Of a DNA stretch of 33,001 nt, positions 1,528 through 32,585 are shown piece by piece. Each line of letters begins with the position of its first letter. The stretch's first letter is position 1. Under the pieces are notes generated by a model. That model saw nothing but the letters and a program-made list of their open reading frames with translations. It was not told where the DNA came from and did no database searches. Source of the stretch: Planctomycetaceae bacterium (GTDB lineage: Bacteria; Planctomycetota; Planctomycetia; Planctomycetales; Planctomycetaceae). The stretch spans positions 1 to 33,001 of the forward strand of contig OMIV01000113.1 of NCBI GenBank assembly GCA_900299185.1. The letters run 5' to 3'. The position numbers and the translations under genes are program-made.

Positions 1528-2545
1528 AAGAGATCAATGGTTTGAAGCCTTCGTTAGTGAGAGTCACGGTGGCTGTGAGCGGCGTGGTATGCACGGCTTC
1601 GACGAACGGCACTCGGCCTCCGGCAGTTCGACGACTAATGCGCGGCGCGACGGTGTCTTGCCGACCATCACCGGCCACGACGAACCTCGCCAAGAAACGT
1701 CCCGGCCCCGGCAGCAGGGCAAAGTCATGTGTCACTCGAATGACAATCGGATCCTGCCAACCTACTTCGTTTCGATTCCAATCGCGGATGTATTCGCCGC
1801 TTTCATTTGTGGCGATGACACCATCAACCACGCGTAAGACTCGCGGGTTGTAGGTCGGTCCTCTTTCGAAATCTTTGGCAATAAAAGCGAGATCGAGCGT
1901 GGTATTCCAGTAGGCGTAGCTGAGCTTGTTTTGCAGTCGAGTTGGAATCTTGGCGTTCGTTGAAGACGACGGAACAAGCTGTTGATAGGCCGCAATAAGC
2001 ACATCGGGTTGAGTCGGACAACTTGGACATGTAACCGGCTGCAAGTAGGTATGACTCGGCGAGATTGGAGCCAATGCCGTCACGGCTGCAGAGAAGATCT
2101 TGTTGAGCTTGTACGACGACGATTCGTCGACTCCGTTCGCGGCAATGCTGGTGTTGTTGAAGACGGCTTGGATGGGATTGTCGTCTCGAATCGGGTCGGG
2201 CACGTGGTTCTCGTAACTCTCTGAGTAACTAGCAGCGCCGCGCAAATGAGCCGGTGCCCAAACGATGGCCGCTCGCCCGGCAGCGAACGCGGCGTAATGC
2301 ACGACGATGATGCCAACCATCAACTGGCTGACCTGCACGATGAACATCACGAGCATCACAAACAGAGGCAACGTCAGCACGAAGCTCAACGACTGAACGG
2401 CACCTCGCTCGCATCGATGCAGCCGCAGCAATCTCGACAACGTCAGCTTCGCACCGCTGAGCTTTATCACCGCGCACAACACCACAAACGCGACGACCAT
2501 CGCAATAACGGCAGGCAACAGTGCAGTCAGAATCTCGCGATTCAT
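1508..2545 (-). CDS. TadE-like pilus assembly membrane protein
   Basis: 345 residues from an ATG. There is a hydrophobic helix at about 8-30, a basic linker with CERGAV at about 45-50, and a second long helix at about 53-80 followed by HYAAFAAGRAA. The block of ERG, a hydrophobic run, then an alanine-rich AAGRAA segment is the TadE signature: minor pseudopilin-like proteins processed by the TadV peptidase that prime or anchor Flp pili. Residues 100-345 are soluble and extracytoplasmic, with a CPSC pair near 175-178. The extra N-terminal helix is unusual, because most TadE proteins begin close to the prepilin site. The gene lies between the peptidase gene (about 176 bases upstream) and the TadG-like gene, which it overlaps. 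The first start codon is used; its Shine-Dalgarno (GGAA) is weak. Confidence 0.72.
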   Translation of the reverse strand: MNREILTALLPAVIAMVVAFVVLCAVIKLSGAKLTLSRLLRLHRCERGAVQSLSFVLTLPLFVMLVMFIVQVSQLMVGIIVVHYAAFAAGRAAIVWAPAHLRGAASYSESYENHVPDPIRDDNPIQAVFNNTSIAANGVDESSSYKLNKIFSAAVTALAPISPSHTYLQPVTCPSCPTQPDVLIAAYQQLVPSSSTNAKIPTRLQNKLSYAYWNTTLDLAFIAKDFERGPTYNPRVLRVVDGVIATNESGEYIRDWNRNEVGWQDPIVIRVTHDFALLPGPGRFLARFVVAGDGRQDTVAPRISRRTAGGRVPFVEAVHTTPLTATVTLTNEGFKPLISYEQRID

Positions 2546-2721
2546 GTCGATGTTCCGAGTCGTCTTGAAACGACCAATGCCACTTCGAATTCAGCTCATC
2601 CCACTGATTCATCACACACAGGATCAGACAGCTTCTTTCGTCCCGTGCGATGCGATACGGCCGTCGCGAAAGCAGATTGATTCCAATTCACATCGAGCCG
2701 CAGTCTTTGCTCCTGGCAGAA

Positions 2722-3258
2722 CTATCCCATCAAGTGCCGATATCCCACGAGGGCCGCCGCCAGAAATGCAGACGGAGCTAAGAACAATCCCCGTTGCAGA
2801 GGCTGACGTTCCAACGGAGTCAGTGGCACCCAACCTTTGGCTTGAGTCACCAACCGTAGGTGCTCAAACGCGGCACCTAGCAGTTTCGCAACACCAACTT
2901 GCCAGATGATGACGGCCATGCCGAGAACAAATCCCAGAGAGAAGGTCCAAAGCACAACTTCGATGCCGGACTCTAAACCCAGAAATGCGCCGACCATCGC
3001 CATCAACTTCACGTCGCCGCCCCCCATGTCAAAAAATACGAAGGCGACGAGCATCAGTCCGCCACATGCTAAGAAGCCCACAAGCGATGTTTGCAGTCCT
3101 TCCCAGCCATGCCCCAACCAACCGAACCCCAGACAGTTGATAATCAACCCCAGCAACATGCCGGGGTAGGTGTTCCAGTTCGAGATCCAATGCCTACGAA
3201 TGTCGGTCACGGACGCGAGAGCCAACAAAACCAAGAGCACACAGAAAGCTGGCATCAT
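2722..3258 (-). CDS. Prepilin peptidase, TadV/CpaA type (A24 family)
   Basis: 178 residues of almost entirely membrane protein. It carries the two aspartates of A24 aspartic peptidases: one in VTDIRRHWISN (about residues 18-28) and one in GGGDVKLMA, the GxGDxK-type motif. The family cleaves the leader of Flp and TadE-type prepilins on the cytoplasmic face of the inner membrane. The length fits CpaA/TadV, which lack the N-methylation domain of PilD. The frame extends upstream to a TTG at 3297, but the ATG-ATG at 3258/3255 places the first helix right at the N-terminus as in the family, so I start there; a weak AGGG lies just upstream. It sits 63 bases after the second pilin gene, as expected for an enzyme acting on the two pilins. 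Confidence 0.82.
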   Translation of the reverse strand: MMPAFCVLLVLLALASVTDIRRHWISNWNTYPGMLLGLIINCLGFGWLGHGWEGLQTSLVGFLACGGLMLVAFVFFDMGGGDVKLMAMVGAFLGLESGIEVVLWTFSLGFVLGMAVIIWQVGVAKLLGAAFEHLRLVTQAKGWVPLTPLERQPLQRGLFLAPSAFLAAALVGYRHLMG

Positions 3259-4066: not shown

Positions 4067-7000
4067 CTAGGGAGCTAGTCGGTGGAGCGTTCCGGTCTCG
4101 CTAAGTAACAGCACGTGACCGTTGCTGTCGAAGGTTGAGGCTTCGATGAAAGGCGCTTCGAAACGAACTCGCGCCGTTGGAGAGGGCAGGGCCGAATCGG
4201 TCGCGGCTCGGGGCACGATGCCCGAGTCGGGGAGATCAAAGAGCAGAGCTTCCGAGTACGTCAGCAATGCCAGTCGCTTGCCGTTCGAATGCAGTGCGGC
4301 ATCGGTGATCCAGTTCGCATTCGGAATCGTGCCGAGGAGTTTTAGTTCCACCGCGATTGATTGACCGGTGGGCTCGGGGGCGGCGGTCGGGAGATCCAGC
4401 GCAAAGAGTTGCGCCACCCCCGATGAGACCTTGCTTGGCAAGTAGTACTTCCCGCCGAGCACAAACGATGCTTCGAAGTCGGTATCAGGAGCAGGAGCGT
4501 TAAACGTCATTTTCCGACGCAGTGCCAATTCGATTGGTTTGGCGAAGGACGACTCGGCGGCACCTGCCGCACGCGGATCTGGTTCGTCGACTTCGTAGAT
4601 CGACCTCGCAGCCGATCGCGAGGCGTTGCCGACGTCACCAATCAGTAAGTGCGATTGTGCATCGAGCGTGATCGTTTCCCAATCCGAGTTCGTCGCTCCG
4701 GCGATCTTGTAGGTCGCCAGCACTCGGCCAGTTTGGTCGAGCGCGTACAAGTTCGCGGGATTGCCCGAGTCCGAGATCGTCCAGAAAACGCCTTCGTGCT
4801 TGCTGCTCGCGATGAGACCCGATGCTTCCTGAATCTCGGGAACACTCAACTTGCCAACGTCTTGCACGGGTGCCGCCGCTAACTCACGGGGAGCGGCAGT
4901 TTGCTTTAAGCGTGCTAACGTCTCTCGATCGAATGCCGCTTGCTGTCGCGCGAAGAATTCTGCGGCACTGAGCATCGACTGCTCTCCTGCTTCGGATTCG
5001 ACAATCCACACAAGGCTGTCGAGTTCATCAGCCGGTGCGTTGCCATTCGCGTCGGGCTTGCCAGAGATCAAACTCAGCGGCTCACCCGTCGGGCTCACGG
5101 CCAAACAACCGCCATGCTGTGTCGTAATCATTACGCCAAGCGGCTTGCTTTGAACGCTATCCCAAATCTCAACGGTCCCGTGACTAGTCCCCAGAGCCAA
5201 CGTGCATTGATCGGGATGTAAGCTGAGTGACACCAACTCTCCCGGCGGCTGCCGCAGCGTTCGGACAATCTCGCCCTTCAAATTCAACTCCAGCAAATGT
5301 CCCGTGCGCAAGGCAGCAAAAAACGATCGCTGCTCGCCTCGCCAAGCGATCGCGGAAATAGAACCGCCCACGTACGGAGTGTCCGGCCTGGGTTTCATGG
5401 TTGCGACATCGACAACGAAAGAGTGGTCGCCTGCGGCATACATGATCTTCTCATCGGGCGACCAAATCAGACCGTACACATTGCTATTCAACGCGACCTT
5501 TCGTTGCTCGCCCGTCTTTAGAGAGACGACGATGATGTCTCCGCCTTGCAGTGAGACCGCGACTTGCTCGCCACTCGGACTTGCCGAGATCGAAATGATT
5601 GGCCGATCAAACGCAGCTAACTCGGCACGAACATCGCCGGTGCGTGTGAGGAGCTGCAGCTTCGACTGATGATTGTTTGCAATGAGTTGCCAGGCCGAGC
5701 CATCCAACTTGCGAGTGCCCGCGACAGGACTGCCATTTTCTGGAAGTGCTGCGACACCATTCAGTGTGGTCGGATTCGGTCGGGCGCTCGAATTAGGGCG
5801 AGTCCAGTCGAAGGCATGCAGAGGCACATCGACGACGCGTTTCATCATTGTTGTCCCGTCGGGGGCCAGCAGACTCAGCGTGCCCGCATGACTGCTGACG
5901 GCAAGTACGCTGCCATCGGGCGACCACTTCGCGGCACTGATGTCGGCGTAGCTCGGCGTGTAGGTTGTCAGCAAGCGACCAATCTTTAGCGACGGGCCCT
6001 TGCCCACAACTTCATGCAGGAAGACTCGACTGCCACTGGCACTGGCGAGGCGTTGCCCATCCGGCGACCAGCCAACTGCCAGCGTTGGTTGCGGCAATGG
6101 CCAAGTGAAGGTCTTCTGTAGAACCCCTTGACGATCGACGAGATCAATGACGCAGTGGCCACCACGTGCAAAAAGTCGTTGATCGGGACTCAGAGCAGCA
6201 CACGACACGGCTGAGTTCATCGCAATCTCTTCAGGTTTCGCGTTCTTTGGACCTCGTGCCTCGTATCGCCGAACCAGCGGAGCCTGTTGTGAAATCAAAA
6301 TGTGATTGCTGTCTCGCTCCCAATCGCAGTTGATGGCATCGCGGCACGACCACTGATTGATGACCTGCCAGGTCGAGACATCCCAAACTTCGAGAGCCTC
6401 AAAAGACGCGGCGATGAGCAAGCGACCGTCAGGACTCCAACTGGTTCGAGTTGGCCCTCCAGCGATCGTCGTTCGGATGAGCTTCGGTTCGCTCCACTTC
6501 TCGTGTTCGTCCTGTGTAATAATTCCGAATTGCTGAAGATCTCGAAGTGCAATCGCCAAACGCCGACCGTCCGAACTCCAACTCACTCCATAGATCCCCA
6601 GTTCGATGCGAATGCGATCAATCACGGTCCCTTCCGGATCAAGAATTGCAATTCCGCCATGTTCTGCCGAGGCGAGAAACTTGCCATCAGGGCTCCAGGC
6701 GAAGTTGGCCACGCGAGCAACCTTTTCTGAGCGTGTAAAAGCGAGCCGCGACTTCCGAACGTCCCACACAAACAACGCGCCTGTGAAGTCGAGCGACGCA
6801 ATCCACAATCCATCTGGCGACCAGCTCAACTGATGCGGGTACTGCGTGTGGCCAAGTAATATTGATTCCACTCCACCATCGGTTGTACGCAGCAGGCGAA
6901 TGGCAGCATCTTGCGTCGACACCGCGAGCAGTTTGCCATCGGGACTCCACGCCAGCAGGTGGCAGAGCGACTGTGATTCGCGACGTTTGATTTGCCAGCG

Positions 7001-10000
7001 TCCCATGCCAGGAAGCCGAGCCGGTTTGGGAACGATACCAACCAGACTCGATTGAGCACTTGGTTCTTGCCAACGCGATGCCAGCCTCAGCGTCGCTGTC
7101 GCGAGCTGCGGCAAACCCAACCGCAATCGCGTCGGCTGAAGCTGAGGCGATGACGGCAATACGGCAGCAGGTTCGGAAGTATTTGTCGGAAGGATTACAG
7201 CATCGCATGTCACCAAGGCTTGCTGCGGTCCGCTCACTTCCAAGTCGTACTCACCCGCAGGCAACAGCACCTCGCCTTTTTGTTGCGAACGAAGTTCCAA
7301 AGTTGTGACAGTCTCGGTGCCGCGTTTCACAGTGACAACCGGGTCGAGAACATCCGACTCAATCAGCAAACGCGTTCGGTCCTGTTGCAGCAGTTCCAGA
7401 TCCTGCTTGGCAAGTTGCGCAAGTACTGAGTCCGGTGCCGCGTCTTTGCGTGCGGTTTCGAAGAACTGTTTCGCTTCGACATGCTTGCTCAAGCGAACGA
7501 AGCGATGCCCGAGCATCCATGCCGCCTTCGCTCGGAACTCCGGTGGCAATGACGGAGCGACTCCGCTCCAACCGACAAAGTTCGTCGTACCCTTCCATGC
7601 CAGTGCGAGCTGCATCAACTGCGATGTCTTGAGCTTACCCGTCTCGAACACGCCGGAAAGCCCCTCATTTACTAACTCCCACAGCGTCTGATCTTGCTCG
7701 ATCGTCACAACGCTCTCGAATGCCTTCTGTCGCAGAAACGCTTGTCCGATCAGCAGCAGCGGCAAGCGCGTGCGTTCGCGCAGTGAGATCGCTTCGAGAG
7801 CAAATTGACGAGCGAGCTGTTTGCCGCGCGGCGCCCGCCACATGTCGCGCATGCTTTCGAAGATGGACTGCGGCGTTGCGAGTGACGTCGCCATCGAGAC
7901 CATAGAACCGCTCGAGTTCCCGGTCGAGACGAGTCGCATGAATTCGCTCGCGTCGCTCTCACGCAGTTCGCCACTCAATGACCCAAGCATCAGTGCCAGA
8001 ATCAGACTGGTGTCGTAACTCTTACCGTTACCGTCGAAGAGAACTTGCGAGCGTGCATAGGCTCGACTCCAAATGTCATGAGCTGCGCTCACGTTCCCGC
8101 GTTCATCCAGCAGCAGGCCCAATATCACCGAGCGGGCAGACTGAGTGTACGTCTCGAATGGCTCGTCTTTTTGCGGCTCACCGATCGCGCGCAGATCGGC
8201 TTCGCAGTTGTCGATGTTACCGAGCATGTAGTGAGCCCGAGCTCGCTCCAGCAGCAGCATCGAACTCATCGGCTCGGACATCGGCACTCGTCCCGAAAGC
8301 GACGCATCGAGTTCTTCAATCGCTCGCTTCGCCTGACCGGACAGTCGCAGGATGCGGCAGAAGTGGCGCATGACTAACGCGCTGCGCTGCCGCTTGAGCA
8401 ATGGCTCAATCACGGCCAGTGCTTCGGGCCACTTCTCGGCAAAGTGATAGACCCGCATCAATTCCATTTGGTTATAAAAATCACCGAACCCATCGGGACT
8501 CAGCAAGCGGTCAATCGCAGCGGCACGCTCAATCTTCTGCATCCGGTTCAAGTCGAACTGCAAGATGCCGCCGAGCGAGAGATACGACTTCGCATAAGTC
8601 TTGAGGATCTCGTCACGAAGATCGCTCGGCACGAGCACGGCCAGTTCTTCAAAGCGAAACCGCGATGAGAGGATCTCGATGACGCTGTCGGCTTCGTCGG
8701 GCTGGTTGCGTCGCAACGCACTCACGAGTGTCTGTACTCCGGCGAGCGCGCCCCAATTTCCTGAACTACTTGCGACGAGGGGCGCAAATACCTCGTCCGC
8801 CGCAACGAACTGCTGCAACTCCGTCAAGCACGCTCCAAGCTTGTAGCGTGCTTCTTGCTGCACGGACTCGTCTTCGCCTTCAGTGACCTGCTGCCGATAC
8901 TTCTCAGCAGCCTCTGCAAACTTGCCGGCATCAAACAGTTCGTCACCTTGCTCAAGCCCCGACGCCGGGACCGCGCGCGGACGATGCTGAGCCGTCAGCG
9001 ACAGCAGCGGCACATCCGCCGGCCAGCGCAGGGCGAAGACTCCCGGCGAATCTGGTCGCAGCGCAAACGGATCCGTAAAACGCAGCGGCGGTAAGTTGTG
9101 AATCTGAAATTCGAGATCGCCGCGTTGACGTCGCGCTCTTAATTGCAGCGGCCCCGTCGGCAACAAATCCGCAGGCAAAACGCGCCTCAGCAGCGGGATT
9201 CTGTTACGCCGAACCTCGGCGACAAACTGCTTCGTATTTGCATTCGAAGATGCCAGATTCACATCGTCTTCATTGGCGTGTGAAGTCGTCGAGGCTGGCG
9301 CATCGAGCATTCGAATTGAGAAGTCGTAACCACGGCTGCCAACAGAGTTGAGGCTGAAACCCACTTCGACAGCCGTTCGCCACTCGGGACCAAAAACACC
9401 CGCGAGTTCGATATCGTCGCGACATACGAACAAGGTTTCGGTCTGGGGAGCGACGACGTATTTGATCTCCGTCGCGTTGTCGGCGTGAGCCGCCCGAGCC
9501 GTCATTCCTACAACGGCAACGACCGACTTCTCACTGTGTTTCGGCAGGAACGCCCCCTTCGCAATCTGCACCTTTGATTCACCGAAGATCTTCTGCAGTA
9601 GCTCGTTGAGCTTTGCTGTCGCTGCGGCATCCGTCGAAACCGTTTGAGGCGCATTCAATTCAAAGTCGACAACCCAATCAGTGAGGCGTCCCTCAAGCTG
9701 AGTCAGCAAGTCATCCGCCAATGACGGAGCGCGGCCTTGCAACAACTGAATCGAAGCTCGCAATGACTCCGCGACTTCGGTGCTGAGCTTCGGGCGCTTC
9801 AGTTCTTTCTGCAGCAAGTCAACGAAGGCATCCGTAATGCGACTGGCATGGTCGACCGGAGCCCGCTCGTTCTGTTGCGGCAGCGCGGCAATGCGAGTGG
9901 CGAGTTGATCCGCCGACTTCAGCCACTGCTCCGACAACTGAGCGTTGTCGATTGTCCGCTCGAACTCGGTCTGCAAGGTGACAAACTCGCGTGAGGCCGA

Positions 10001-11362
10001 CGCTGACTTTGCGAGTGAGAACCCCGCACCAATCGCGATGCCGAGCACGACAACGGACGCGATCAACGCGGCAGCCAGCGGCTTGCGTTTGCACCAGCGC
10101 CACACGCGCGTTGCAGCATTCACGCGTCGTGAGCGAATTGGCTCTCCAGCCAGATACCGCTGCAGCTCCGCCGCGAGTTCTCCCGCTGATGCAAGCCGAT
10201 GCGCGGGCGTCTTCTCAAGACACTTCAGGCAAATCGTTTCGAGGTCTCGATCAACCGACGGGTTGAGCAGACGCGGCGAGACCGGAGCAGATTCAACGAA
10301 GTGCTTGAGTGTCTCCATCACCGTCACACCTTGAAACGGCGGACGTCCGACGAGCAAGCAATAGAGCACCGCACCGAGCGAATAAACGTCCGACAGCGGC
10401 CCGACTTCTCGAATGCGTCCGGCAGCTTGTTCGGGAGGCATGTAAGAAGGAGTACCCAGAATTTGACCGCTCGCAGTGAGTCCGCTGTCTTGCTCAATAG
10501 CTTTCGCCAATCCGAAGTCGGTTACGCGCGGATGTCCGTCGCTCGTGAGCAGAATGTTCCCCGGCTTCAAATCGCGATGCACGATGCCGTGCTGATGCGC
10601 GTACTCGATAGCCTCAGCCACTTCGTGCATCAGCGTCGCCGCGTCTCGTGCGGGCAGGGGGCCGCGCCGCACACGATCGGCCAGACTCTCACCATCAACG
10701 AAGCCCATCGAGAAGTAGTGCTGCCCCTCGTACTCACCGACTTCATAGATCGGCACGATGCCCGGATGTTCGAGCCGAGCCGCCGCCTCGGCTTCGCTAT
10801 AGAAGCGTTGAATGTCGCCGTCCGAAGCGAGCTGACCTTGCAAGATCATCTTCACCGCAACAACGCGATTCAGCCGCGTCTGTCGAGCTCGATATACGAC
10901 ACCCATGCCTCCGCGAGCGATCTCAGCAATGACCTCGTAATCGCCGAACGACTTCAGCATCGACCGTCGTCCACCCGCCGTTCTGACATTAGCCCGCGCA
11001 GCCGGAGTCTCGAACTGAGTGTCGCTGCCGTCTGCTGGTTGAATGACCGTTTCGACGGCCTCAGGGGCCAACGGGCGCCTTTCCTGAGGCACGATCGTCT
11101 GCACGTCCGCCGGTGACATCGGTGCCGACGTTTGGGTGCTCTCCGCTGGAGCAATAACAGCCGCGACTTTAGTTGCTGATGTGGCCGTCCTTTGTTCGAG
11201 GCCAATCTCCGTCACCGATTGCGAGTCGCGAGGCGTCGCCGTCGATGATTCATTGAGAGTCATCTCAGCAGCATCCGCAGCGGGAGCGTTCTGGAGAGGT
11301 TGAATCATGGTCGCATCGAGTTCCGTGCGACCGGCCTGCTCACTGGCGGGATCTTGGCTCAT
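4067..11362 (-). CDS. Giant Ser/Thr protein kinase with repeat region, WD40 propellers and C-terminal propeller-like domain
   Basis: 2431 residues. After a disordered N-terminus (1-140) comes a complete Hanks-type kinase domain (about 142-403): glycine loop ARGGMG (149-154), lysine K171 in VAVK, HRDLKPGN (262-269), DFG (282-284), PPE (309-311). All catalytic residues are present, so it should be active. A membrane helix follows (about 429-447), which places the kinase in the cytoplasm and the rest probably outside it. Next are an unassigned beta-rich block (about 560-800), helical TPR-like repeats (about 800-1325), then about a dozen WSPDG-type WD40 blades (about 1455-2120), and a last module (about 2170-2431) with EASGLIASS and WTISDSG motifs, resembling a separate propeller family. 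AGGA sits about 8 bases before the ATG. Planctomycetes have many such kinases; the ligand and substrate are unknown. It is probably transcribed alone. Confidence 0.88.
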   Translation of the reverse strand: MSQDPASEQAGRTELDATMIQPLQNAPAADAAEMTLNESSTATPRDSQSVTEIGLEQRTATSATKVAAVIAPAESTQTSAPMSPADVQTIVPQERRPLAPEAVETVIQPADGSDTQFETPAARANVRTAGGRRSMLKSFGDYEVIAEIARGGMGVVYRARQTRLNRVVAVKMILQGQLASDGDIQRFYSEAEAAARLEHPGIVPIYEVGEYEGQHYFSMGFVDGESLADRVRRGPLPARDAATLMHEVAEAIEYAHQHGIVHRDLKPGNILLTSDGHPRVTDFGLAKAIEQDSGLTASGQILGTPSYMPPEQAAGRIREVGPLSDVYSLGAVLYCLLVGRPPFQGVTVMETLKHFVESAPVSPRLLNPSVDRDLETICLKCLEKTPAHRLASAGELAAELQRYLAGEPIRSRRVNAATRVWRWCKRKPLAAALIASVVVLGIAIGAGFSLAKSASASREFVTLQTEFERTIDNAQLSEQWLKSADQLATRIAALPQQNERAPVDHASRITDAFVDLLQKELKRPKLSTEVAESLRASIQLLQGRAPSLADDLLTQLEGRLTDWVVDFELNAPQTVSTDAAATAKLNELLQKIFGESKVQIAKGAFLPKHSEKSVVAVVGMTARAAHADNATEIKYVVAPQTETLFVCRDDIELAGVFGPEWRTAVEVGFSLNSVGSRGYDFSIRMLDAPASTTSHANEDDVNLASSNANTKQFVAEVRRNRIPLLRRVLPADLLPTGPLQLRARRQRGDLEFQIHNLPPLRFTDPFALRPDSPGVFALRWPADVPLLSLTAQHRPRAVPASGLEQGDELFDAGKFAEAAEKYRQQVTEGEDESVQQEARYKLGACLTELQQFVAADEVFAPLVASSSGNWGALAGVQTLVSALRRNQPDEADSVIEILSSRFRFEELAVLVPSDLRDEILKTYAKSYLSLGGILQFDLNRMQKIERAAAIDRLLSPDGFGDFYNQMELMRVYHFAEKWPEALAVIEPLLKRQRSALVMRHFCRILRLSGQAKRAIEELDASLSGRVPMSEPMSSMLLLERARAHYMLGNIDNCEADLRAIGEPQKDEPFETYTQSARSVILGLLLDERGNVSAAHDIWSRAYARSQVLFDGNGKSYDTSLILALMLGSLSGELRESDASEFMRLVSTGNSSGSMVSMATSLATPQSIFESMRDMWRAPRGKQLARQFALEAISLRERTRLPLLLIGQAFLRQKAFESVVTIEQDQTLWELVNEGLSGVFETGKLKTSQLMQLALAWKGTTNFVGWSGVAPSLPPEFRAKAAWMLGHRFVRLSKHVEAKQFFETARKDAAPDSVLAQLAKQDLELLQQDRTRLLIESDVLDPVVTVKRGTETVTTLELRSQQKGEVLLPAGEYDLEVSGPQQALVTCDAVILPTNTSEPAAVLPSSPQLQPTRLRLGLPQLATATLRLASRWQEPSAQSSLVGIVPKPARLPGMGRWQIKRRESQSLCHLLAWSPDGKLLAVSTQDAAIRLLRTTDGGVESILLGHTQYPHQLSWSPDGLWIASLDFTGALFVWDVRKSRLAFTRSEKVARVANFAWSPDGKFLASAEHGGIAILDPEGTVIDRIRIELGIYGVSWSSDGRRLAIALRDLQQFGIITQDEHEKWSEPKLIRTTIAGGPTRTSWSPDGRLLIAASFEALEVWDVSTWQVINQWSCRDAINCDWERDSNHILISQQAPLVRRYEARGPKNAKPEEIAMNSAVSCAALSPDQRLFARGGHCVIDLVDRQGVLQKTFTWPLPQPTLAVGWSPDGQRLASASGSRVFLHEVVGKGPSLKIGRLLTTYTPSYADISAAKWSPDGSVLAVSSHAGTLSLLAPDGTTMMKRVVDVPLHAFDWTRPNSSARPNPTTLNGVAALPENGSPVAGTRKLDGSAWQLIANNHQSKLQLLTRTGDVRAELAAFDRPIISISASPSGEQVAVSLQGGDIIVVSLKTGEQRKVALNSNVYGLIWSPDEKIMYAAGDHSFVVDVATMKPRPDTPYVGGSISAIAWRGEQRSFFAALRTGHLLELNLKGEIVRTLRQPPGELVSLSLHPDQCTLALGTSHGTVEIWDSVQSKPLGVMITTQHGGCLAVSPTGEPLSLISGKPDANGNAPADELDSLVWIVESEAGEQSMLSAAEFFARQQAAFDRETLARLKQTAAPRELAAAPVQDVGKLSVPEIQEASGLIASSKHEGVFWTISDSGNPANLYALDQTGRVLATYKIAGATNSDWETITLDAQSHLLIGDVGNASRSAARSIYEVDEPDPRAAGAAESSFAKPIELALRRKMTFNAPAPDTDFEASFVLGGKYYLPSKVSSGVAQLFALDLPTAAPEPTGQSIAVELKLLGTIPNANWITDAALHSNGKRLALLTYSEALLFDLPDSGIVPRAATDSALPSPTARVRFEAPFIEASTFDSNGHVLLLSETGTLHRLAP

Positions 11363-13873: not shown

Positions 13874-13899
13874 GCGATGATCGATCTCTCAATCATCGC
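13874..13899. terminator. Hairpin between convergent genes
   Basis: GCGATGAT (13874-13881) and ATCATCGC (13892-13899) form a perfect 8-base stem with a 10-base loop in the 19-base gap between the zinc-ribbon gene stop and the AmmeMemoRadiSam stop, which lies inside one arm. Its position suggests a bidirectional terminator, but neither side has a T-run, so it may act through a different mechanism. Confidence 0.4.
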
Positions 13900-16800
13900 A
13901 ACAAGCGGCCCGCATACCCAACCACTCGCGTGGTATCGCCGTTGGCATCGGCGGATGTGGCGTAGCCAACAAGCATTGATTCTCGAAGTCGGCCTAGCTT
14001 TTTAAGCGTCTTAATCACGATCACTGCCGGGACCACACCGCACATGCTGATTTGGTTTGCTCGACACGTCCTAAAGAGCGAGTCCTCATCCAAGCGATCG
14101 AAGTCAGCGAGTGCCATTGCATCAAGACGGCGGTTCTCTTCGTCGGTCGCGTAGTGATTCATGTCGCTCGAAATGATCAGCAACGGCGGTTCGTCAAGTT
14201 CGCGAATGACCTCAGCCAGCTCCGTTGCGAAAGCGTCGCAGCGTTCGAGATTGGCCGCTCCGACAGCAATGCCAACGACTTTCGTCTCGGGATTGAGCCG
14301 AGCAATCATCGGCAAGTTGACCTCGATTCCGTGCTCGGCTTGATGGGCCGCAGAGTCGAGTTGCAGTCCCTTAATTCGCTCAGACAACTTGGCTGCGAGT
14401 TCGAAGTCAGAGGCGACGTTGCAACCCGGCAACTGCCAAACATGATGCGGAGCAACAGCCCATTCCGAACCATGATGAGTGTGCTTGGGACCGATGATGA
14501 TGACTCGCTTCGGCAATTGAACTCGCTTCAAGACATCAGCTGCGAGCTTGCCCGAGAACGCCCAGCCGGCATGTGGAATCATTGCTCCAGAGCAGGGCAG
14601 GGGAGTGGCTTCGCCATCCAGCAGCTTGTCGAGCATTTGATTCATGCTCGGAGCGTCACCGGGATAGAAACGCCCGGCGACAGCAGCGGGACGCTCTGCC
14701 GAACCACGCTGGGGTCGAGGCACTGCCGAGAACGTTGTGCGTACACGAGTGCTCTGAAATTCGAGGCTGAAGATTTGAGCGTAGATCGGTTCCGCGACCT
14801 GACAAAGCTCTGCCGCGTCATCCAGATTCTTCTCAACCGATGCATCGCGATCGTAGACCCACGCCGTGCGATTTCGCTCCGACACCAGAATCGCTCGATG
14901 GCGAGGGTTAATGCCGCTCAAGCTCGGCTGATCAATCGAGCCATGCATCGTCGTGTTGAAGGCGATCGACAAATCAACGTTGAAGTTCGCATTCAAGAAT
15001 CCACGTCGTCGCAATTGATTGGCCAACTCTTCGCACATCGCAAACGCGGTGGTTTGCAGCGGCATCAGATCTCGAAGGGCCATGCGTGCTTGAACGACTT
15101 CTTGACCGCCACCCGGCAACGTGACATTCAAAGCAATGCCGTTGACCGACGAGTCTGGAACGGTGCCGCAGTAATACATCGGAGTTGCACCACGGATGAG
15201 GGCCGCGATGTTGTCCTTGCAAATGCGTCGGAACTCTTCGAACTGCTCCGGCGAATAAAGCGGCTGAGCCGCTTCAAAGTGCGCGACTTCCTCAGCAGAG
15301 CGAGTCATGCGGCCGTAAATGACATTGCCTTCGAAGCGAAACAAGACAGTGTCAGATTCCTTCCAGGCGGTCGGTGGTAAGCCGGCTTTAATACAAACTT
15401 GATTGAGGAACGTTTCCGAGTCCCAGTCGTTGTCGGTGGCGACACCAGGCAGCAGAAGACCTCGCTGATTGCCACGCACGATCTGCAGACCGTGCATTCC
15501 GATGGTGACCTCGTTGATTCGGTCGAGTCCGGTGGCGTGAACTCGTTCGGGAGAGAACAACAGCCAGACTTCCAGGTCAAGGTGTGGAATTTCAATTCCA
15601 GCAATGGGAGGGAAGCGAGGATCGTCGGTTGCCGTGCGTAGCGACGCCTCTTCGATTGTTCGTTGCAGCGGCATCGTTTGACCGAACGAACCGCAGCAAG
15701 ACCGCAGTCGCTTGTCTCGCTTGAGACTGACGAACGCTCCTGAGATGGCGGCGTCCGCAACTCCGAGTCTCTTGAGATCAGGAATCTGAGCAGGTCGGTT
15801 TTCGACTGCGGCTTTCACGCACTCCGCCGCTGCAGCGAGGATGGCCTCACGTTGTTCGCTGGTCAGAGGCAACCGCGTTGGAGGCTGCGTTGCGATCGGT
15901 CGAACCGGGGCAGGGGGGGCGTTTGTTGCAGAATTCGTCGAATTCTGCGGGGCAGGGGAGAGGGGCGCGATCTTGACCGGAGCGACAGCTGGCTGCTGGC
16001 TGGCCAACCACTGCAGCGCCGATTCGTCAAGCCCCGTCTTCGTGCTACTCGTTGAACCATCCTTGTTTGAGCTGCTCATGAGCGTCGGACCTCCTGATGA
16101 ATGCTGAGTCGTGATACGAGGTTGTGCGGGTTCTGAATTGTTCGTCGTCTGAAGCTGAGTAAGAATTGTGGACTCTGTCGTATTGATTGTCGGAACGGGG
16201 GCAATGTGAAACTGCCGCATGTCGACCGGCTGCCGCTTACGTCCCCAATTGCCGGGTCGATCAAGAAATTGTCCTGCAATCTCGGTCAGGCAGTAACGGC
16301 AACGATTCCCCTGAAGGGCATATGTCCCAAGTTCGTACCAGTTCCGTTCGATGAGCAATTTCTTACAGTTGGGACAGAACGTGCTTTGTCGAGCAACGTC
16401 ATTCACGTTACCCACGAAGACATGCTTCAGACCGACTTGCATCGCGATTTCTCGCGAACGAATGAGCGTGTCATGCGGCGTCGCAGGTCGATCAAGCATG
16501 CGGAAGTCGGGATGAAACGCAGTGAAGTGAATGGGGACTTCATCGCCCACGGCATCCAATACCCACTCACTCATTTGCTTGATCTCGTCAGGACGATCAT
16601 TGGCGTTGGGGATGACCAGATTGGTGATCTCGAACCACACCGGAGTTTCATGCTTGAGCCACTTCAACGTGTCGAGAATCGGCTGCAGATGCGAGTACGT
16701 GATCTTGTAATAGAAGTCTTCGGTGAAGGCTTTGAGATCCACATTGGCAGCGTCCATGAATTCGTAGAACGGACCTCGCGCTTCCTCGGTGATATAGCCC

Positions 16801-17321
16801 GCAGTTACCGCCACGTTCTTCACACCAGCCGCGCGGCAAGCCTTCGCCGTGTCGATGGCGTACTCGGCCCAGATAACGGGGTCGTTGTAGGTGTAAGCCA
16901 CGCTGTGACAGCCCAGAGATTTCGCGGCCAACGCGATCTCATCAGGCATCGCGCGATGACTTAGACGCTCGACTTCGCGGGCTTTGGAGATGTCCCAATT
17001 TTGACAAAACTTGCAGCCGAGATTGCAACCGGCGGTGCCGAAAGACAGCACGCTGGTTCCCGGATAGAAGTGGTTCAGCGGCTTCTTCTCGATGGGGTCG
17101 ATGCAGAATCCCGTGCTGCGTCCGTAGGTTGTCAGCCACATCTCACCGTTGAGATTCTGGCGGACAAAACAGAAGCCGCGATCGCCATCCTTTAACGCGC
17201 ATTTTCGCGGGCAGAGAGTGCAAACAACCCGATCTCCATCGCGGTGCCACCACTCACCGGGGAAATAACCATCGCTTACTTCACGATGAGCTGGCGTTAC
17301 TTTCGGTAACAGAGTTTGCAT
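13893..17321 (-). CDS. AmmeMemoRadiSam triple fusion: radical SAM + AMMECR1 + MEMO
   Basis: About 1142 residues; numbers below count from the upstream TTG at 17351, so subtract 10. Residues about 40-370 are the AmmeMemoRadiSam radical SAM enzyme: CxxxCxxC at C109/C113/C116 in GTAGCNLGCKFC for the 4Fe-4S cluster, an upstream cysteine set (CTLCPRKC), and a C-terminal CPNC/CRYC pair. A Ser/Pro/Ala-rich linker (about 385-495) leads to an AMMECR1 domain (about 496-686, with RDKRLRSCCGSFG). An unassigned block (about 690-880) follows, then a MEMO domain (about 886-1152) with PHAGW (H927), GPKH (H957), SSDMNH (H1066) and C1104, matching conserved MEMO metal-site residues. GGAGGAG (17332-17326) sits just before ATG-ATG (17324/17321), so I start there. 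The start overlaps the DUF3592-like gene. The three parts are usually separate genes; the substrate is unknown. Confidence 0.9.
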   Translation of the reverse strand: MQTLLPKVTPAHREVSDGYFPGEWWHRDGDRVVCTLCPRKCALKDGDRGFCFVRQNLNGEMWLTTYGRSTGFCIDPIEKKPLNHFYPGTSVLSFGTAGCNLGCKFCQNWDISKAREVERLSHRAMPDEIALAAKSLGCHSVAYTYNDPVIWAEYAIDTAKACRAAGVKNVAVTAGYITEEARGPFYEFMDAANVDLKAFTEDFYYKITYSHLQPILDTLKWLKHETPVWFEITNLVIPNANDRPDEIKQMSEWVLDAVGDEVPIHFTAFHPDFRMLDRPATPHDTLIRSREIAMQVGLKHVFVGNVNDVARQSTFCPNCKKLLIERNWYELGTYALQGNRCRYCLTEIAGQFLDRPGNWGRKRQPVDMRQFHIAPVPTINTTESTILTQLQTTNNSEPAQPRITTQHSSGGPTLMSSSNKDGSTSSTKTGLDESALQWLASQQPAVAPVKIAPLSPAPQNSTNSATNAPPAPVRPIATQPPTRLPLTSEQREAILAAAAECVKAAVENRPAQIPDLKRLGVADAAISGAFVSLKRDKRLRSCCGSFGQTMPLQRTIEEASLRTATDDPRFPPIAGIEIPHLDLEVWLLFSPERVHATGLDRINEVTIGMHGLQIVRGNQRGLLLPGVATDNDWDSETFLNQVCIKAGLPPTAWKESDTVLFRFEGNVIYGRMTRSAEEVAHFEAAQPLYSPEQFEEFRRICKDNIAALIRGATPMYYCGTVPDSSVNGIALNVTLPGGGQEVVQARMALRDLMPLQTTAFAMCEELANQLRRRGFLNANFNVDLSIAFNTTMHGSIDQPSLSGINPRHRAILVSERNRTAWVYDRDASVEKNLDDAAELCQVAEPIYAQIFSLEFQSTRVRTTFSAVPRPQRGSAERPAAVAGRFYPGDAPSMNQMLDKLLDGEATPLPCSGAMIPHAGWAFSGKLAADVLKRVQLPKRVIIIGPKHTHHGSEWAVAPHHVWQLPGCNVASDFELAAKLSERIKGLQLDSAAHQAEHGIEVNLPMIARLNPETKVVGIAVGAANLERCDAFATELAEVIRELDEPPLLIISSDMNHYATDEENRRLDAMALADFDRLDEDSLFRTCRANQISMCGVVPAVIVIKTLKKLGRLRESMLVGYATSADANGDTTRVVGYAGRLLR
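15928..15948. repeat. Perfect 10-base inverted repeat inside the AmmeMemoRadiSam linker
   Basis: GCAGAATTCG-T-CGAATTCTGC, 21 bases with a one-base centre. It falls in the part encoding the low-complexity linker (around the residues QNSTNSA), next to a run of G. It may be chance in a weakly constrained linker, or a DNA-level site. Confidence 0.4.
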
Positions 17322-18483
17322 CATGCTCCTCCGGACAATGGAAAACGGCAATGTCGTAAACGAGATGCATGCCGAGTAACCAACTTTGGTTTGCCACGTG
17401 AATTTGCCACTTCGCGATGTGGTAGTTCGACACGTTGAATTCAGCGCGACGATTCTCCACTCGCCACGGTGATGGGATCGACCATCGTGCGATCCCGTTT
17501 TCGATCGCCACCATTTGGTGTTTGATCGAGTCGGCTTGGAAGCCTTGTGCGGCGGCCAACTCCTCGGGCACTTCGAGCCAAACGGCGATGGAATGTTTGA
17601 ATTCAGAATCGGGGTCGAACTTCAACATGCACTTCAAGTCATCACCCAGCATCAACGGCGAGGGCGACACATGGAGTTGAGGCTCGCCGTGTCGAGCCAT
17701 TTGCCACAACGTAAACAGCAACAACAAGAACAACGAACCGGCGATAGCAATTGCTGGTGGCAGCAGCCACCACAGCGTCCTCGACTGTGTAGCAATGCCC
17801 TGAATCATCGCCACGAAAAAGAATCCCAGTGGCACATTGCAGGCGATATTCAATCCGATCACCGAGACCCATCGGCGTTGCGGGCGTCCTTGACCTTCAA
17901 AGTGATCTGGATCCCAACACCACGGTTGCAATGGCAGTCGAGCTTGCAATGCCGTGACTTGCCAGATTCGACGTTGTCGCCCCCAGACTCGTTGACCAAG
18001 CCACAATCCCAAAGGCAGTAATCCAAGCCCTATTAGCCCAGCGTTTCCAGCAGTTTGAACTGGGAAGTCGCGGTAGAGAATCGCTTGTTCGGGATGCAAT
18101 GGATCGAGATAGCAAGGCACAGTCGCGTCGCTTTTGCGCGCAGCTTCGAGAGCATCGCGACGTTGCTCAGCAAAGTGTTTGTCGAATGTTCGAATTGGGC
18201 TTAACGAGACACGATCCGATCGAAACAACGTGCCGTTCCAAGAGACGTCATACTTCGCCATCACTTCATAGATAGTTCCAATATCCGACTCTCGAACCTT
18301 AAGCCGCGTTTGAAGAATGAGAGCATCAGCGTGAGCCATATTGTCCGACGACAGCCAGTCGTTGGACTCCGATAAAGCAAACATCAATTGAATGGCCCCG
18401 ACCACCGACAACCACGAAGCCAGAATCATCCCCGCGATCGTGATGACCTGGAGTCGGCGACGCGAAAATCGAGAGCCGGGCAT
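17281..18483 (-). CDS. DUF3592-like membrane protein
   Basis: 400 residues from an ATG; the frame extends to a TTG at 18507, but the ATG is preferred because the first helix begins soon after it. One N-terminal helix (about 13-36) is followed by an extracytoplasmic section with the DUF3592 pattern: a conserved YDVSWNG strand, then VPCYLDPLHPEQAIL, where the family has 'V.VYYDP.NP..A.L'. Three further membrane helices (about 147-168, 207-233, 236-262) and a soluble C-terminal region of beta strands follow. DUF3592 proteins have no firm function. Its end overlaps the start of the AmmeMemoRadiSam gene by 41 bases, so the two are translationally coupled. Confidence 0.7.
   Translation of the reverse strand: MPGSRFSRRRLQVITIAGMILASWLSVVGAIQLMFALSESNDWLSSDNMAHADALILQTRLKVRESDIGTIYEVMAKYDVSWNGTLFRSDRVSLSPIRTFDKHFAEQRRDALEAARKSDATVPCYLDPLHPEQAILYRDFPVQTAGNAGLIGLGLLPLGLWLGQRVWGRQRRIWQVTALQARLPLQPWCWDPDHFEGQGRPQRRWVSVIGLNIACNVPLGFFFVAMIQGIATQSRTLWWLLPPAIAIAGSLFLLLLFTLWQMARHGEPQLHVSPSPLMLGDDLKCMLKFDPDSEFKHSIAVWLEVPEELAAAQGFQADSIKHQMVAIENGIARWSIPSPWRVENRRAEFNVSNYHIAKWQIHVANQSWLLGMHLVYDIAVFHCPEEHDANSVTESNASSS
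17326..17332 (-). promoter_or_regulatory. Strong Shine-Dalgarno deciding the AmmeMemoRadiSam start
   Basis: GGAGGAG reads on the minus strand inside the end of the DUF3592-like gene. It is 1 base before the ATG at 17324 and 4 bases before the ATG at 17321, so the second is the more likely start. The upstream TTG at 17351 has no such signal. Confidence 0.65.
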
Positions 18484-18657
18484 GCAATCAACTCGTTTCA
18501 ATGGCAAACAAAAAGGTGAGGTGAACTTGCTGATGTCACGCGACTCATAACGGCCAGCAGCTTGGTCCGCGTCATGTAAGACTTCCGACCAATCTGAACT
18601 GCGATCGCTGCAATCACACCACGATCACAGGCGAGACTCACTGTGGAACTGTCAGAA

Positions 18658-28860: not shown

Positions 28861-28890
28861 CAAAAGCGGTGATTTAGTTCAAATTCACCG
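28861..28890 (-). terminator. Likely intrinsic terminator after the GHMP kinase gene
   Basis: On the minus strand CGGTGAATTT (28890-28881), loop GAACT, AAATCACCG (28875-28867), then GC and a run of four T (28865-28862). The stem is 9 pairs with one bulged A, and the stop codon of the gene lies inside it. It would end the flagellar-GHMP transcript before the cytochrome gene. Confidence 0.48.
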
Positions 28891-29892
28891 AACTGTCGGC
28901 TTGATGACCTTGCAGCCGATTTCGCCCAGTCGAACAGTCAATCGAGCGAATGTGGTCTCGTCGGGATAAACACCGACAATGGCGCCACCAGAACCGGCAA
29001 ATTTGGCTGACGCTCCGCATTGCCGAGCAGTCTCAATCATCAAGCAATGAGTCGGTGATAGATCACAAATCGACTTGCGTAAGTCGAAGTTTTCATTCAT
29101 GAGCACTGAAAAAGCAGCCACATCACCTAGCTTCAACGCCCGATACGCCGCCTCTGCGAGACTTGCGAACTTTGACATCGCCGCAACCACTTTGGCGTCG
29201 CCGGCGAGGAAGCGTGCCTTTAATGGGCCGTGAGTGACCTCAGTTGGCTCCCCTGCTTCTGTGGAATAAGCAATGTAGATCGTAGGTAGTAATCCGATCG
29301 GAACCGACTCATAGATTCCGCAATTATATCCGTCGATTGTGCGAATCTTGTCCTTGGCGAAGTCCATATAAACTAGACCCTCGAGAACTTGAATCACACG
29401 ATCCTGAAGTCCGCCAGCAATACCGAGATCCTGCGTCTCAACGGCGAGAGCCAGCGACGGTTGCACATCAGTCGGTATCGCAACGTGATAAAACTCCTGC
29501 AAGGCTCGAAGCGTCGCGACAATAATCGCACTCGATCCGGCAAGCCCCACTGCTCGAGGAATGTTCGAACCATAACGAATCGAGAAATTGCGAGCGTGAA
29601 GCCTCCAACCTTTGAACTGGCAATACTCTACAAACCGTTTAATTGTAGCTTTCACTAACCTGGCTCCGCCATAGTAGCCATGCAATTTCACATCGTGCTG
29701 TAATTCGTGAATGGAGCCAAAGCGGCTTCGATCTTCTTGGCTCAGTATTATTTCAAGATCTTCCCACTCATAAAGAACGACTTCAGCAAAAAAATCACGG
29801 ATGACCACGGAAAGCGTACGACCGTTGTATCCATCCGATGGATTCCCAATCAGTCCAGCTCTTGCATACGCTCTTTGATGGATGATTTCCAT
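28885..29892 (-). CDS. GHMP sugar kinase, glucuronokinase-like
   Basis: 335 residues. The N-terminal AYARAGLIGNPSDGYNG (about 9-23) and the ATP loop PRAVGLAGSSA (112-122) are GHMP motifs 1 and 2, GIAGGLQDR (158-165) contains the likely catalytic aspartate (D164), and KFAGSGGAIVGVY (297-309) is motif 3. The LIGNPSDGY form and overall length resemble plant glucuronokinases, which phosphorylate D-glucuronate at C1 for UDP-glucuronate synthesis; other sugar-1-kinases are possible and the substrate is not fixed by the sequence. The ATG lies 14 bases after the MotE-like gene, so it is in the flagellar transcript, with a likely terminator at its end. Its link to the flagellum is unknown. Confidence 0.85.
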   Translation of the reverse strand: MEIIHQRAYARAGLIGNPSDGYNGRTLSVVIRDFFAEVVLYEWEDLEIILSQEDRSRFGSIHELQHDVKLHGYYGGARLVKATIKRFVEYCQFKGWRLHARNFSIRYGSNIPRAVGLAGSSAIIVATLRALQEFYHVAIPTDVQPSLALAVETQDLGIAGGLQDRVIQVLEGLVYMDFAKDKIRTIDGYNCGIYESVPIGLLPTIYIAYSTEAGEPTEVTHGPLKARFLAGDAKVVAAMSKFASLAEAAYRALKLGDVAAFSVLMNENFDLRKSICDLSPTHCLMIETARQCGASAKFAGSGGAIVGVYPDETTFARLTVRLGEIGCKVIKPTVR

Positions 29893-31271: not shown

Positions 31272-32585
31272 TCAATACGGCCACATGCCAGAAATGCGTT
31301 GCATCGCAGTCAGCGTTTCATCGAGATTGAATCGCGTTCCAACCTCTTGTCGTAAAAACGTCCGAATCGGACCAATCAACTCGACAGCCCGATCAGTTTC
31401 GGGATTGGCCCCCTTCTTATAAGCACCAATCCGAATCAAGTCCTCTACGTCAGAGTAGAGCGACATGATTGCTCGCAGCCGCCTGGCGGCGTCTTTGTGT
31501 TCCTTACTTGTGATACTCAAAAAGGCGCGACTAACGCTCTGCGCGATGTTGATCGCGGGGTATTGACCAGACTCTGCAATCTTTCGATCCAAAACGATGT
31601 GACCATCCAGAAGAGCTCGTGCCGCATCTGACACTGGCTCATCCAAGTCCCCGCCATCGACAAGCACCGTCAAGAATCCGGTGATACTGCCGCGATCTGA
31701 ATTACCAAGACTTTCCAACGTACGAGCCATAAGTTGGAAACACGAGGGGGTGTAGCCACGAGCGCTTGGCGGTTCACCGATGCTGAGCCCAAGTTCTCGT
31801 TGAGCCATCGCAAGGCGTGTTAAGCTGTCTAAAAAGAACAATACATTCGCGCCTTGCCGACGATAATAATCCGCAATTGTAACCGCAGTTTCGACAGCTC
31901 GAATGCGCATCAAGGGCAACTGGTCGCAGGTTGAAATTATCACAATTGATCGAGCGAGACCTTCTTCACCGAGACAGTCTTCGATGAACGGAACTAATTC
32001 GCAACCTCGTTCTCCAACGAGGGCGACAACATTGAGATCGGCTTCGGATGTTCGAGCGATCTGCCCCATCAACGTGCTCTTCCCGACCCCGCTTCCCGCA
32101 AAGATACCCACGCGCTGACCGCGCCCGCAGGTCAGCATGCTGTCGATTGCCTTTTGGCCGGTCACAAAGGGATCCGAAATCCGCTGGCGTGACAACGCAC
32201 TTGGCGGATTATGCATGACAGGCACTTCGAGGATTTCATTTAGTTCACCCGCACCGTCAGCAGGACGACCGAGCCCGTCGAGAACGCGTCCTAGCACTCC
32301 TGGTCCAACTGGGACCATGCGTTTTCGTCCGAGGCGAACAACAGCCATGCCAGCTTGAATAGCATCTTGCCGCTCGTAAGGAACGAGATGCGGTAGCCCG
32401 TTGGTGAAACCGATGACCTCAGCCAACAGAGACACGTCTCGACCGTTGAGTTGGCATTGATCGCCCAGAGCCAGCGGGAGAGCGCAAGCCAACCGATCTT
32501 CGACGAACTTCAACCGCCCTGTGACCTGTAGCGTCTTGACGCTGTCCAATTCGCGGGTAACCCGATCTAAATTGAGTCCCAGCAT
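31272..32585 (-). CDS. fliI: Flagellum-specific ATP synthase FliI
   Basis: 437 residues. The Walker A loop is GSGVGKST (164-171), the Walker B strand VLFFLDSLTR (248-257, D253), and the segments EPPSARGYTPSCF, DEPVSDAARALLDGHIVLDR and DLIRIGAYKKG are typical of the FliI/YscN family. The ATPase powers and sorts flagellar export, as a hexamer with FliH and FliJ at the cytoplasmic side of the export gate. The motif GERGREV reads GERGCEL here (191-197), an arginine-to-cysteine change in a normally conserved position, consistent with a C-to-T change. The ATG overlaps the fliH stop by 19 bases. Fifty-nine bases separate it from the broken fliJ. Confidence 0.93.
   Translation of the reverse strand: MLGLNLDRVTRELDSVKTLQVTGRLKFVEDRLACALPLALGDQCQLNGRDVSLLAEVIGFTNGLPHLVPYERQDAIQAGMAVVRLGRKRMVPVGPGVLGRVLDGLGRPADGAGELNEILEVPVMHNPPSALSRQRISDPFVTGQKAIDSMLTCGRGQRVGIFAGSGVGKSTLMGQIARTSEADLNVVALVGERGCELVPFIEDCLGEEGLARSIVIISTCDQLPLMRIRAVETAVTIADYYRRQGANVLFFLDSLTRLAMAQRELGLSIGEPPSARGYTPSCFQLMARTLESLGNSDRGSITGFLTVLVDGGDLDEPVSDAARALLDGHIVLDRKIAESGQYPAINIAQSVSRAFLSITSKEHKDAARRLRAIMSLYSDVEDLIRIGAYKKGANPETDRAVELIGPIRTFLRQEVGTRFNLDETLTAMQRISGMWPY

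Follow-up and report, generated by a model that had tools for sequence, protein, structure and literature searches.

Gene and domain organization

The window, meaning the whole stretch of 33,001 bases that was analysed, carries on its reverse strand a frame of 1152 aa that is uninterrupted between TTG 17351 and its stop codon at 13893, and in which a radical SAM domain (R), an AMMECR1 domain (A), a pseudo-AMMECR1 domain (M) and a MEMO domain (B) follow one another in this order (Table 1). ATG 17321 is preferred as the start because a GGAGG lies six bases upstream of it, giving a protein of 1142 aa and a computed 126,240 Da; the same frame also offers ATG 17324 and TTG 17351 as alternative starts. 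Counted from the TTG, the chain matches the NCBIfam models TIGR04337 (radical SAM, residues 34-378, 579.8 bits against a cut-off of 220), TIGR04335 (protein A, residues 504-677, 124.4 bits against 99) and TIGR04336 (protein B, residues 887-1149, 250.5 bits against 26). The original prediction of a single intact chain with radical SAM, AMMECR1 and MEMO in that order is thus confirmed, since one frame passes all three cut-offs, and its three named domains stand, but as a domain count it was incomplete, four being present with a second AMMECR1-type copy that had been overlooked. The cluster cysteines were likewise correctly placed (C109/C113/C116 in TTG numbering, C99/C103/C106 when counted from the ATG), as was the linker at about 385-495, where the model is disordered at 386-487 in TTG numbering, and the expected His/His/His/Cys set of MEMO is present as H917, H947, H997, H1056 and C1094, together with D1053.

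Table 1. Features of the fused gene and its protein (residue numbers count from ATG 17321)
Feature	Position	Strand	Basis
Whole gene, 1142 aa from ATG 17321	13893..17321	-	
Shine-Dalgarno-like GGAGG, 6 bases before ATG 17321	17328..17332	-	read in sequence
Radical SAM domain R (TIGR04337)	16218..17252	-	
CxxxCxxC (C99/C103/C106)	17004..17027	-	alignment
Disordered linker, residues 376-477	15891..16196	-	pLDDT under 50 in model
AMMECR1 domain A (PF01871, TIGR04335)	15321..15830	-	Pfam, NCBIfam
R-x-C-x-G of A (R540, C542, G544)	15690..15704	-	106/106 fused rows
Domain M between A and B, divergent second copy of AMMECR1 type, unnamed by Pfam or NCBIfam	14709..15263	-	profile, model, fold
MEMO domain B (PF01875, TIGR04336)	13908..14687	-	Pfam, NCBIfam
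H917, equivalent to H49, an iron ligand of human MEMO1	14571..14573	-	alignment
H947, equivalent to H81, an iron ligand of human MEMO1	14481..14483	-	alignment
C1094, equivalent to C244, an iron ligand of human MEMO1	14040..14042	-	alignment

In our main alignment (106 rows, taken from a pool of 107 distinct fused proteins) H917 is found in 105 of the 106 rows, and H947 and C1094 in 105 each with a single gap. Gaps at C34-C106 arise because some rows have short N-termini. By alignment, B carries as a putative metal site the equivalents of the His/His/Cys iron ligands of human MEMO1, whose roles are taken from PMC11081632. B also has the MEMO fold in common with that protein (3bcz, 7kq8), which stands alone while B sits in a fused chain.

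A divergent second AMMECR1-type domain

Roughly 190 residues separate AMMECR1 from MEMO, and these constitute M. The Pfam AMMECR1 model (PF01871) matched none of the 62 M members at E up to 1, and R-x-C-x-G, the signature of the AMMECR1 family, occurs in 0/62 M rows against 106/106 A rows; for these two reasons we call M AMMECR1-like and place it outside PF01871. A library scan of the window's M returned 0 families, and since Pfam and NCBIfam do not see the domain, annotation pipelines overlook it. A profile of M nonetheless matched those of fused and stand-alone AMMECR1 domains (P 1e-6 and 1.9e-6, with about 165 columns compared), the MEMO and radical SAM profiles giving P 0.35 and 0.078 as negative controls. 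Furthermore, in a Foldseek search with the predicted model of M (pLDDT 97.1) AMMECR1 structures were the sole matches under E 0.001, and in fold comparison the top three matches, at Z 14.1, 12.2 and 10.6 over 168-171 residues, were solved AMMECR1 structures, with the best other structure at 5.3. The AMMECR1 family structures PH0010 (1vaj), MM0484 (1zq7) and ST0229 (1wsc) resemble A by sequence and M by fold; the identity of M to AMMECR1 structures is about 9-12%. By profile and predicted fold, M is accordingly a divergent AMMECR1-type domain.

The M alignment comprises 62 of 63 representatives (L052 omitted) drawn from 132 M stretches. Searching 294 genomes of the phylum with the M profile gave matches in eight, of which seven lie in an A-M-B context and the eighth (G160, E 6.7e-4) falls on an ordinary AMMECR1 domain, so that no stand-alone M gene was found among them. 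M is absent from the g186 genomes, where an 8-residue gap takes its place, and the middle of L202 (from G449) matches the M profile weakly (P 0.0047). Loss of M in g186 is the simpler reading, since L060, which lacks M, groups with the M-bearing L063 in the tree of radical SAM domains (support 98); L063 is itself among the 62 alignment rows and matches M strongly by construction.

The radical SAM domain is loosely attached and exchangeable

Besides the CxxxCxxC motif, alignments of R show two further conserved cysteine sets, C34/C37/C41/C51 and C316/C319/C341/C344. R has its radical SAM core in common with pyruvate formate-lyase activating enzyme (3c8f, 3cb8) but differs from it in these extra sets and scores only 55.7 bits with the PflA model, far below the cut-off of 231.75, which places it outside that family. 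Across the 106 fused rows the stretch between R and A varies from 22 to 146 residues, whereas the A-M joint has 10-12 residues in 90/106 rows and the M-B joint 11 residues in 94/106. A, M and B are hence connected by short, near-constant joints, and R by a variable linker. The full-chain model likewise has the linker disordered and A, M and B mostly at pLDDT over 90, with a pTM of 0.61 for the whole. R thus hangs on a tether that is disordered in the model and variable in length, and that is probably not essential.

In G167, G475 and G552, as well as in the genomes from which L168 and L170 come, R has a gene of its own, and in one group A-M-B is fused to an R from a very distant radical SAM branch, as indicated by an 89-row tree (representatives of 178 rows) and an AU test. 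Alignment A1 included 12 of 15 radical-SAM-only rows, and the AU tests used hand-picked sets of 29 and 30 rows. In a 73-row A-M-B tree (representatives of 161 rows) the group whose R is of the distant branch, itself at 88, is nested in the main clade (37 rows, support 99); its exclusion from that clade is not rejected in the 30-row set (p-AU 0.21). On these trees, one kind of A-M-B block occurs fused to R domains of two lineages that lie very far apart; we claim the two linkages and leave replacement of R and independent fusion undistinguished. That the components act at a fixed 1:1:1, as one chain would imply, is not borne out as a general requirement, given both the separate R genes and the R of very distant lineage in one group.

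Distribution, copy number and gene neighbourhood

The same architecture was found in a genome of the same genus (G199) and in many assemblies, some of them of a single contig (G225, G209). Among the matches listed, the fused chain occurs in at least 58 of 170 and at least 43 of 248 genomes (hand counts, class assemblies), the phylum, family and class searches having scored 2-4 candidates per genome. A contig scan with two MEMO patterns fitted to the Planctomycetota group, of which the best 80 of 297 loci were kept and named, had the fused chain in 73 of these 80, and a plasmid search yielded 44 matching records, none of which covered 80% of the chain. L064 and L065 are not one-frame fusions and were left out of a 38-row fused alignment. 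The fused chain is usually the sole copy, as 26 of the 27 fused genomes present in both searches have one AMMECR1-model match and 23 of 27 one MEMO-model match; in the window's genome both models match once. The expectation that the components are otherwise separate neighbouring genes proved too simple for these genomes, since nine frames (about 7 distinct genes) are two-domain proteins in the reverse order MEMO-AMMECR1, and in some genomes the AmmeMemoRadiSam genes lie far apart or on different contigs.

Flanking genes, counted as stop-to-stop frames rather than called genes, offer no clue to the substrate: with the fused gene and overlapping frames excluded, no gene of the window had a relative in more than 5 of 91 loci. 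Clustering of neighbours from 87 sources gave one recurring same-strand gene directly upstream in 14, encoding a protein with two DUF3467 stretches, and a profile of it matched 16 of 92 stretches (the 91 loci and the window, five being repeats of named loci). It was rejected as a specific partner, given that G087 and G105 carry two-DUF3467 frames but have no fused-protein match; the window's genome, with one such frame on another contig, likewise disfavours it.

Proposed mechanism and alternatives

What the data show is the domain order, the retention of cluster and metal residues, the AMMECR1 fold of M in a predicted model and a broad distribution of the chain within the class; the mechanism that follows is inferred. 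The explanation that we tentatively prefer, at somewhat short of even chances, is a one-chain R-A-M-B system in which a compact A-M-B and a tethered R act jointly on one substrate. A, M and B would fold as one compact body, A with its retained R-x-C-x-G and the iron site of MEMO would act on the same substrate, and M, which lacks the motif, may contribute a binding or packing surface. The tethered R would swing in and generate a 5'-deoxyadenosyl radical that abstracts a hydrogen from the substrate, whereupon MEMO could complete the change through iron redox chemistry; the tether would raise the local concentration without being essential. Against this stand the pTM of 0.61 for the whole-chain model, the missing M of g186 and the weak one of G449, the detachment of R in relatives, the uninformative neighbours and the report in PMC11081632, whose authors detected no dioxygenase activity for human MEMO1.

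A credible alternative, only somewhat less likely, is that the domains are only co-tethered, R acting on a separate protein like pyruvate formate-lyase activase, with the AMMECR1/MEMO block as regulator or metal supplier and the fusion just equalising amounts. Such an arrangement would suit the resemblance of R to that activase, its detachment in several lineages and the free length of its linker, but it is in poor agreement with the joining of A-M-B to two distant R lineages and with the almost invariant site residues of A-M-B. That M is an unrelated spacer resembling AMMECR1 by chance is very improbable: Pfam and NCBIfam do withhold the AMMECR1 label (0/62 members; 0 families for the window's M) and the identity is low, but the profile P values differ from those of the controls by orders of magnitude, every Foldseek match under the threshold is an AMMECR1 structure, and the best Z of 14.1 compares with 5.3. 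Least credible of all, to the point of being nearly negligible, is that the frame arose by chimeric assembly or belongs to a gene in decay. The window is indeed a whole contig in a genome of 383 contigs, but the same order recurs in the same-genus genome and in many assemblies, several of one contig, and the frame has no internal stop and keeps its site residues; independent assemblies with the same chain refute the reading as a chimeric join.

Within the preferred one-chain system, a more speculative and rather unlikely extension is that the degenerate M and the active A form an obligate internal pseudo-dimer, A-A'-MEMO being the true catalytic unit that accepts unrelated radical SAM domains. 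If so, AMMECR1 would generally be an adaptor that holds the substrate and links radical SAM with MEMO chemistry, and its stand-alone form would act as a dimer.

Relation to known systems

AmmeMemoRadiSam (TIGR04337/TIGR04335/TIGR04336; PGAP names amrS, amrB) is widespread and partly common to humans, in whom AMMECR1 and MEMO1 are disease-linked, although we know of no agreed molecular function for either. All three families exceed their curated cut-offs here, and judged by sequence the chain constitutes its cell's AmmeMemoRadiSam system, with the whole set truly fused. Three separate genes are the usual layout, one not demanded by the models; here there is instead one frame, in which A and B are separated by an additional domain of AMMECR1 type. 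A literature search found no paper naming a radical SAM-AMMECR1-MEMO fusion in its title or the start of its abstract. As a natural fusion, the chain is a handle on AmmeMemoRadiSam, and by uniting both domains with a radical SAM domain it lends itself to structural and trapping studies. The presence of M inside the chain gives a hint of where self-pairing of AMMECR1 may take place, and the near-constant A-M-B joints, as against the loose and exchangeable radical SAM domain, hint at which contacts are fixed.

Memo-Ammecr1 systems have reportedly been treated by Burroughs et al. in 2019, in a paper that PMC7159879 cites. The two-domain MEMO-AMMECR1 proteins (e.g. L077, 484 aa) have both domains in one chain, as here, but in the order B-A, without M and with the radical SAM protein separate. 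A 464-aa amrB adjoining amrS in Ideonella has the length of such a two-domain protein, a likeness of length alone.

The fused gene and its occurrence

A radical SAM domain (R), an AMMECR1 domain (A) and a MEMO domain (B) lie in one chain in the order given by the original prediction, encoded by a single intact reading frame, and the NCBIfam profiles of the AmmeMemoRadiSam radical SAM enzyme, protein A and protein B (TIGR04337, TIGR04335 and TIGR04336) all score above their cut-offs, in agreement with a Pfam scan. The three predicted domains are thus borne out, but not as the full count, since a fourth, here called M, is present. The frame can be read from a TTG or from an ATG preceded by GGAGG at the right distance; residues are numbered from the latter, which gives a protein of 1142 residues and 126 kDa.

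Genes discussed in the text, with positions on their own sequence
Feature	Sequence	Position	Strand	Remarks
Fused gene, ATG start	window	13893-17321	-	R-A-M-B
Fused gene, TTG start	window	13893-17351	-	R-A-M-B
Upstream gene	window	17281-18507	-	overlaps fused-gene start by 41 bases; weak DUF3592 match, under cut-off
Protein kinase	window	4067-11362	-	2431 residues, WD40 repeats
GHMP-kinase-family gene	window	28885-29892	-	same contig as fused gene
ATPase	window	31272-32585	-	T3SS/EscN-type C-terminal domain (Pfam); flagellar or secretion type
R with about half an M domain	L206 (genome G607)	1630-3135	+	no A or MEMO behind
MEMO - AMMECR1 - caspase-like chain	L183 (genome G160)	460-3057	-	865 residues
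Two-DUF3467 gene upstream of fused gene	L121-L127, L129, L141, L149, L164, L170, L172-L175			L170: upstream of an A-M-B gene, not of a full fusion

The same architecture was sought in other genomes and recurs in many of the class, so the fused chain is real and common there. The window's family has a match in 81 of 170 genomes, and in at least 58 of the 170, by hand count among the matches listed and with several rows cut by contig ends, R and at least the AMMECR1 part share one open frame. The corresponding hand count among the matches listed for the class is at least 43 of 248 genomes, spanning six family codes, while the phylum has a match in 115 of 199 genomes, four among the matches listed (the window's genome, G048, G069 and G181) having both parts in one frame without internal stop. 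Among the best 80 of 297 loci of a scan of named genomes, 73 have R, A, M and B together in a single frame, and the other seven have an A-M-B frame without R. Three of these seven frames start at a contig edge (L113, L145 and L167); in L133 R and A-M-B are two overlapping frames, in L166 a 91-codon piece of R adjoins A-M-B, and the loci L168 and L170 lack R, which in these genomes is a separate frame on another contig. The titles of the best 80 are planctomycetes, including Gimesia, Pirellulaceae, Gemmataceae, Isosphaeraceae and Fuerstiella, except for three 'bacterium' bins (L099, L141, L175), one 'Nealsonbacteria' bin (L151) and three 'Kuenenia' bins (L108, L111, L112).

The fused gene is usually the sole copy in the cell. 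It is the only PF01875, PF01871 and TIGR04337 match in the window's genome (E up to 0.001), and among 27 fused genomes covered by both family searches there is one PF01871 match in 26 (two in G573), a count that excludes M because PF01871 does not see it, and one PF01875 match in 23 (two in G449, G504, G532 and G573). Genomes G167 and G573 (loci L189 and L190) have a reverse-order MEMO-AMMECR1 gene besides the A-M-B form and hence two sets per cell.

The AmmeMemoRadiSam system and its families are already known, and reverse-order MEMO-AMMECR1 frames are present in the phylum. A literature search, covering few subscription journals, listed no publication that names this fusion in its title or at the start of its abstract. 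The fused genes are in public genomes, and others may well have come across the three-domain layout before. As far as can be seen, what is new is M as a second AMMECR1-type domain, the anatomy of block and tether, and the presence of radical SAM domains from two lineages.

The middle domain and the anatomy of the chain

M comprises about 190 residues between A and B, is not named by Pfam or NCBIfam and is conserved across relatives (62 rows), 47 of which show a loose pattern around D-x-A-M-H-G. In profile comparisons M resembles A of the fused proteins (probability 91, P 1e-6) as well as a set of 15 further AMMECR1 domains taken from stand-alone proteins or MEMO-AMMECR1 frames (probability 90, P 1.9e-6), as against P 0.35 for MEMO and 0.078 for radical SAM controls. 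Furthermore, M modelled alone (pLDDT 97.1, pTM 0.90) has as its sole Foldseek matches under E 0.001 four chains of three AMMECR1 structures, and realigning the hits that Foldseek itself had listed gave Z 14.1, 12.2 and 10.6 for these and 5.3 for the best other. Profiles and predicted fold together indicate that M is a diverged AMMECR1 relative; R-x-C-x-G occurs in 106 of 106 A rows and in none of the 62 M rows.

The full-chain model (mean pLDDT 82.7, pTM 0.61) scores above 90 over most of A, M and B and below 50 in residues 376-477, as well as in the radical SAM loop 100-120. The stretch 376-487 has 112 residues in the window and 22 to 146 in relatives (median 43). The joints within A-M-B vary little: A and M are 10-12 residues apart in 90 of 106 rows, M and B 11 residues apart in 94 of 106. 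Judging from pLDDT and joint lengths, A-M-B probably forms a compact body to which R is tethered.

No row that extends as far as the CxxxCxxC motif lacks its cysteines (95-100 rows). In the MEMO domain H917 is found in 105 of 106 aligned fused rows (N in one) and H947, H997, D1053, H1056 and C1094 in 105 each, with one gap; H917, H947 and C1094 align with H49, H81 and C244 of human MEMO1, metal ligands according to PMC11081632. C316, C319, C341 and C344 (106 of 106 fused rows) and C34, C37, C41 and C51 (all 94 rows reaching them) perhaps make up a further metal site.

Linkage of the radical SAM domain and possible function

In the radical SAM tree (89 rows) one group (SH-aLRT 91) holds 54 fused and five not-fused rows, namely L133 and those of G167 (L006), G475 (L203), G552 (L204) and G607 (L206). 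R and A-M-B are two genes about 140 bases apart in G167, and in G607, where A-M-B is on another contig, the R frame with about half an M domain looks like the relic of a former, split fusion. In L115, L140 and L200, with L199 and L201, the A-M-B block is ordinary, but the radical SAM domain is very distant and falls with L216 and L217 (branch 4.06, 100*). A topology that keeps the radical SAM domains of all fused proteins in a single clade is rejected (p-AU 1.4e-31, 29 rows). This set may have arisen by replacement or by a second fusion; by either event A-M-B has come to be joined to radical SAM domains of two lineages, which argues that R and A-M-B work together.

R resembles pyruvate formate-lyase activase and should abstract hydrogen atoms, and human MEMO binds iron or copper (PMC11081632). 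What is shown here is the anatomy; for the chemistry, the simplest chain of events that we infer would have A hold the substrate via its conserved cysteine, R reach it on the linker and generate a radical, and MEMO complete the change by iron redox chemistry, with M offering another surface for binding or packing. In the main rival reading R has a different protein as its target, and the other parts of the chain are regulatory. The joining of two radical SAM lineages to A-M-B speaks for cooperation within the chain, but R is detached from A-M-B in several lineages, M is absent from the g186 genome tested (L060; 8 residues between A and B), and dioxygenase activity was reportedly not detected in human MEMO1 (PMC11081632), all of which counts against the proposed chain of events. 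The neighbours of the fused gene are of no help here.

One published lead is that a MEMO-like gene (MJ0403) is in the mevalonate operon of most archaea, although decarboxylase activity could not be demonstrated (PMC3857490). The window also has a GHMP-kinase-family gene, but none of the other 91 loci showed a match to this kinase next to the fused gene. Translational coupling of the overlapping upstream gene with the fused gene is possible, but this gene has no match in the other loci searched around the fused gene. In the 14 loci checked for position, the gene immediately upstream and on the same strand codes for a protein that contains DUF3467 twice; its profile matches 16 of 92 stretches, and the protein is found also in genomes without the fused gene. 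In G160, of the same phylum and another family, the caspase-like domain of L183 matches PF00656 (52 bits, cut-off 21.4), with NF047832 under its cut-off; this genome (61% complete) has no TIGR04337 match, and contig C237 carries two frames of L183-like size.
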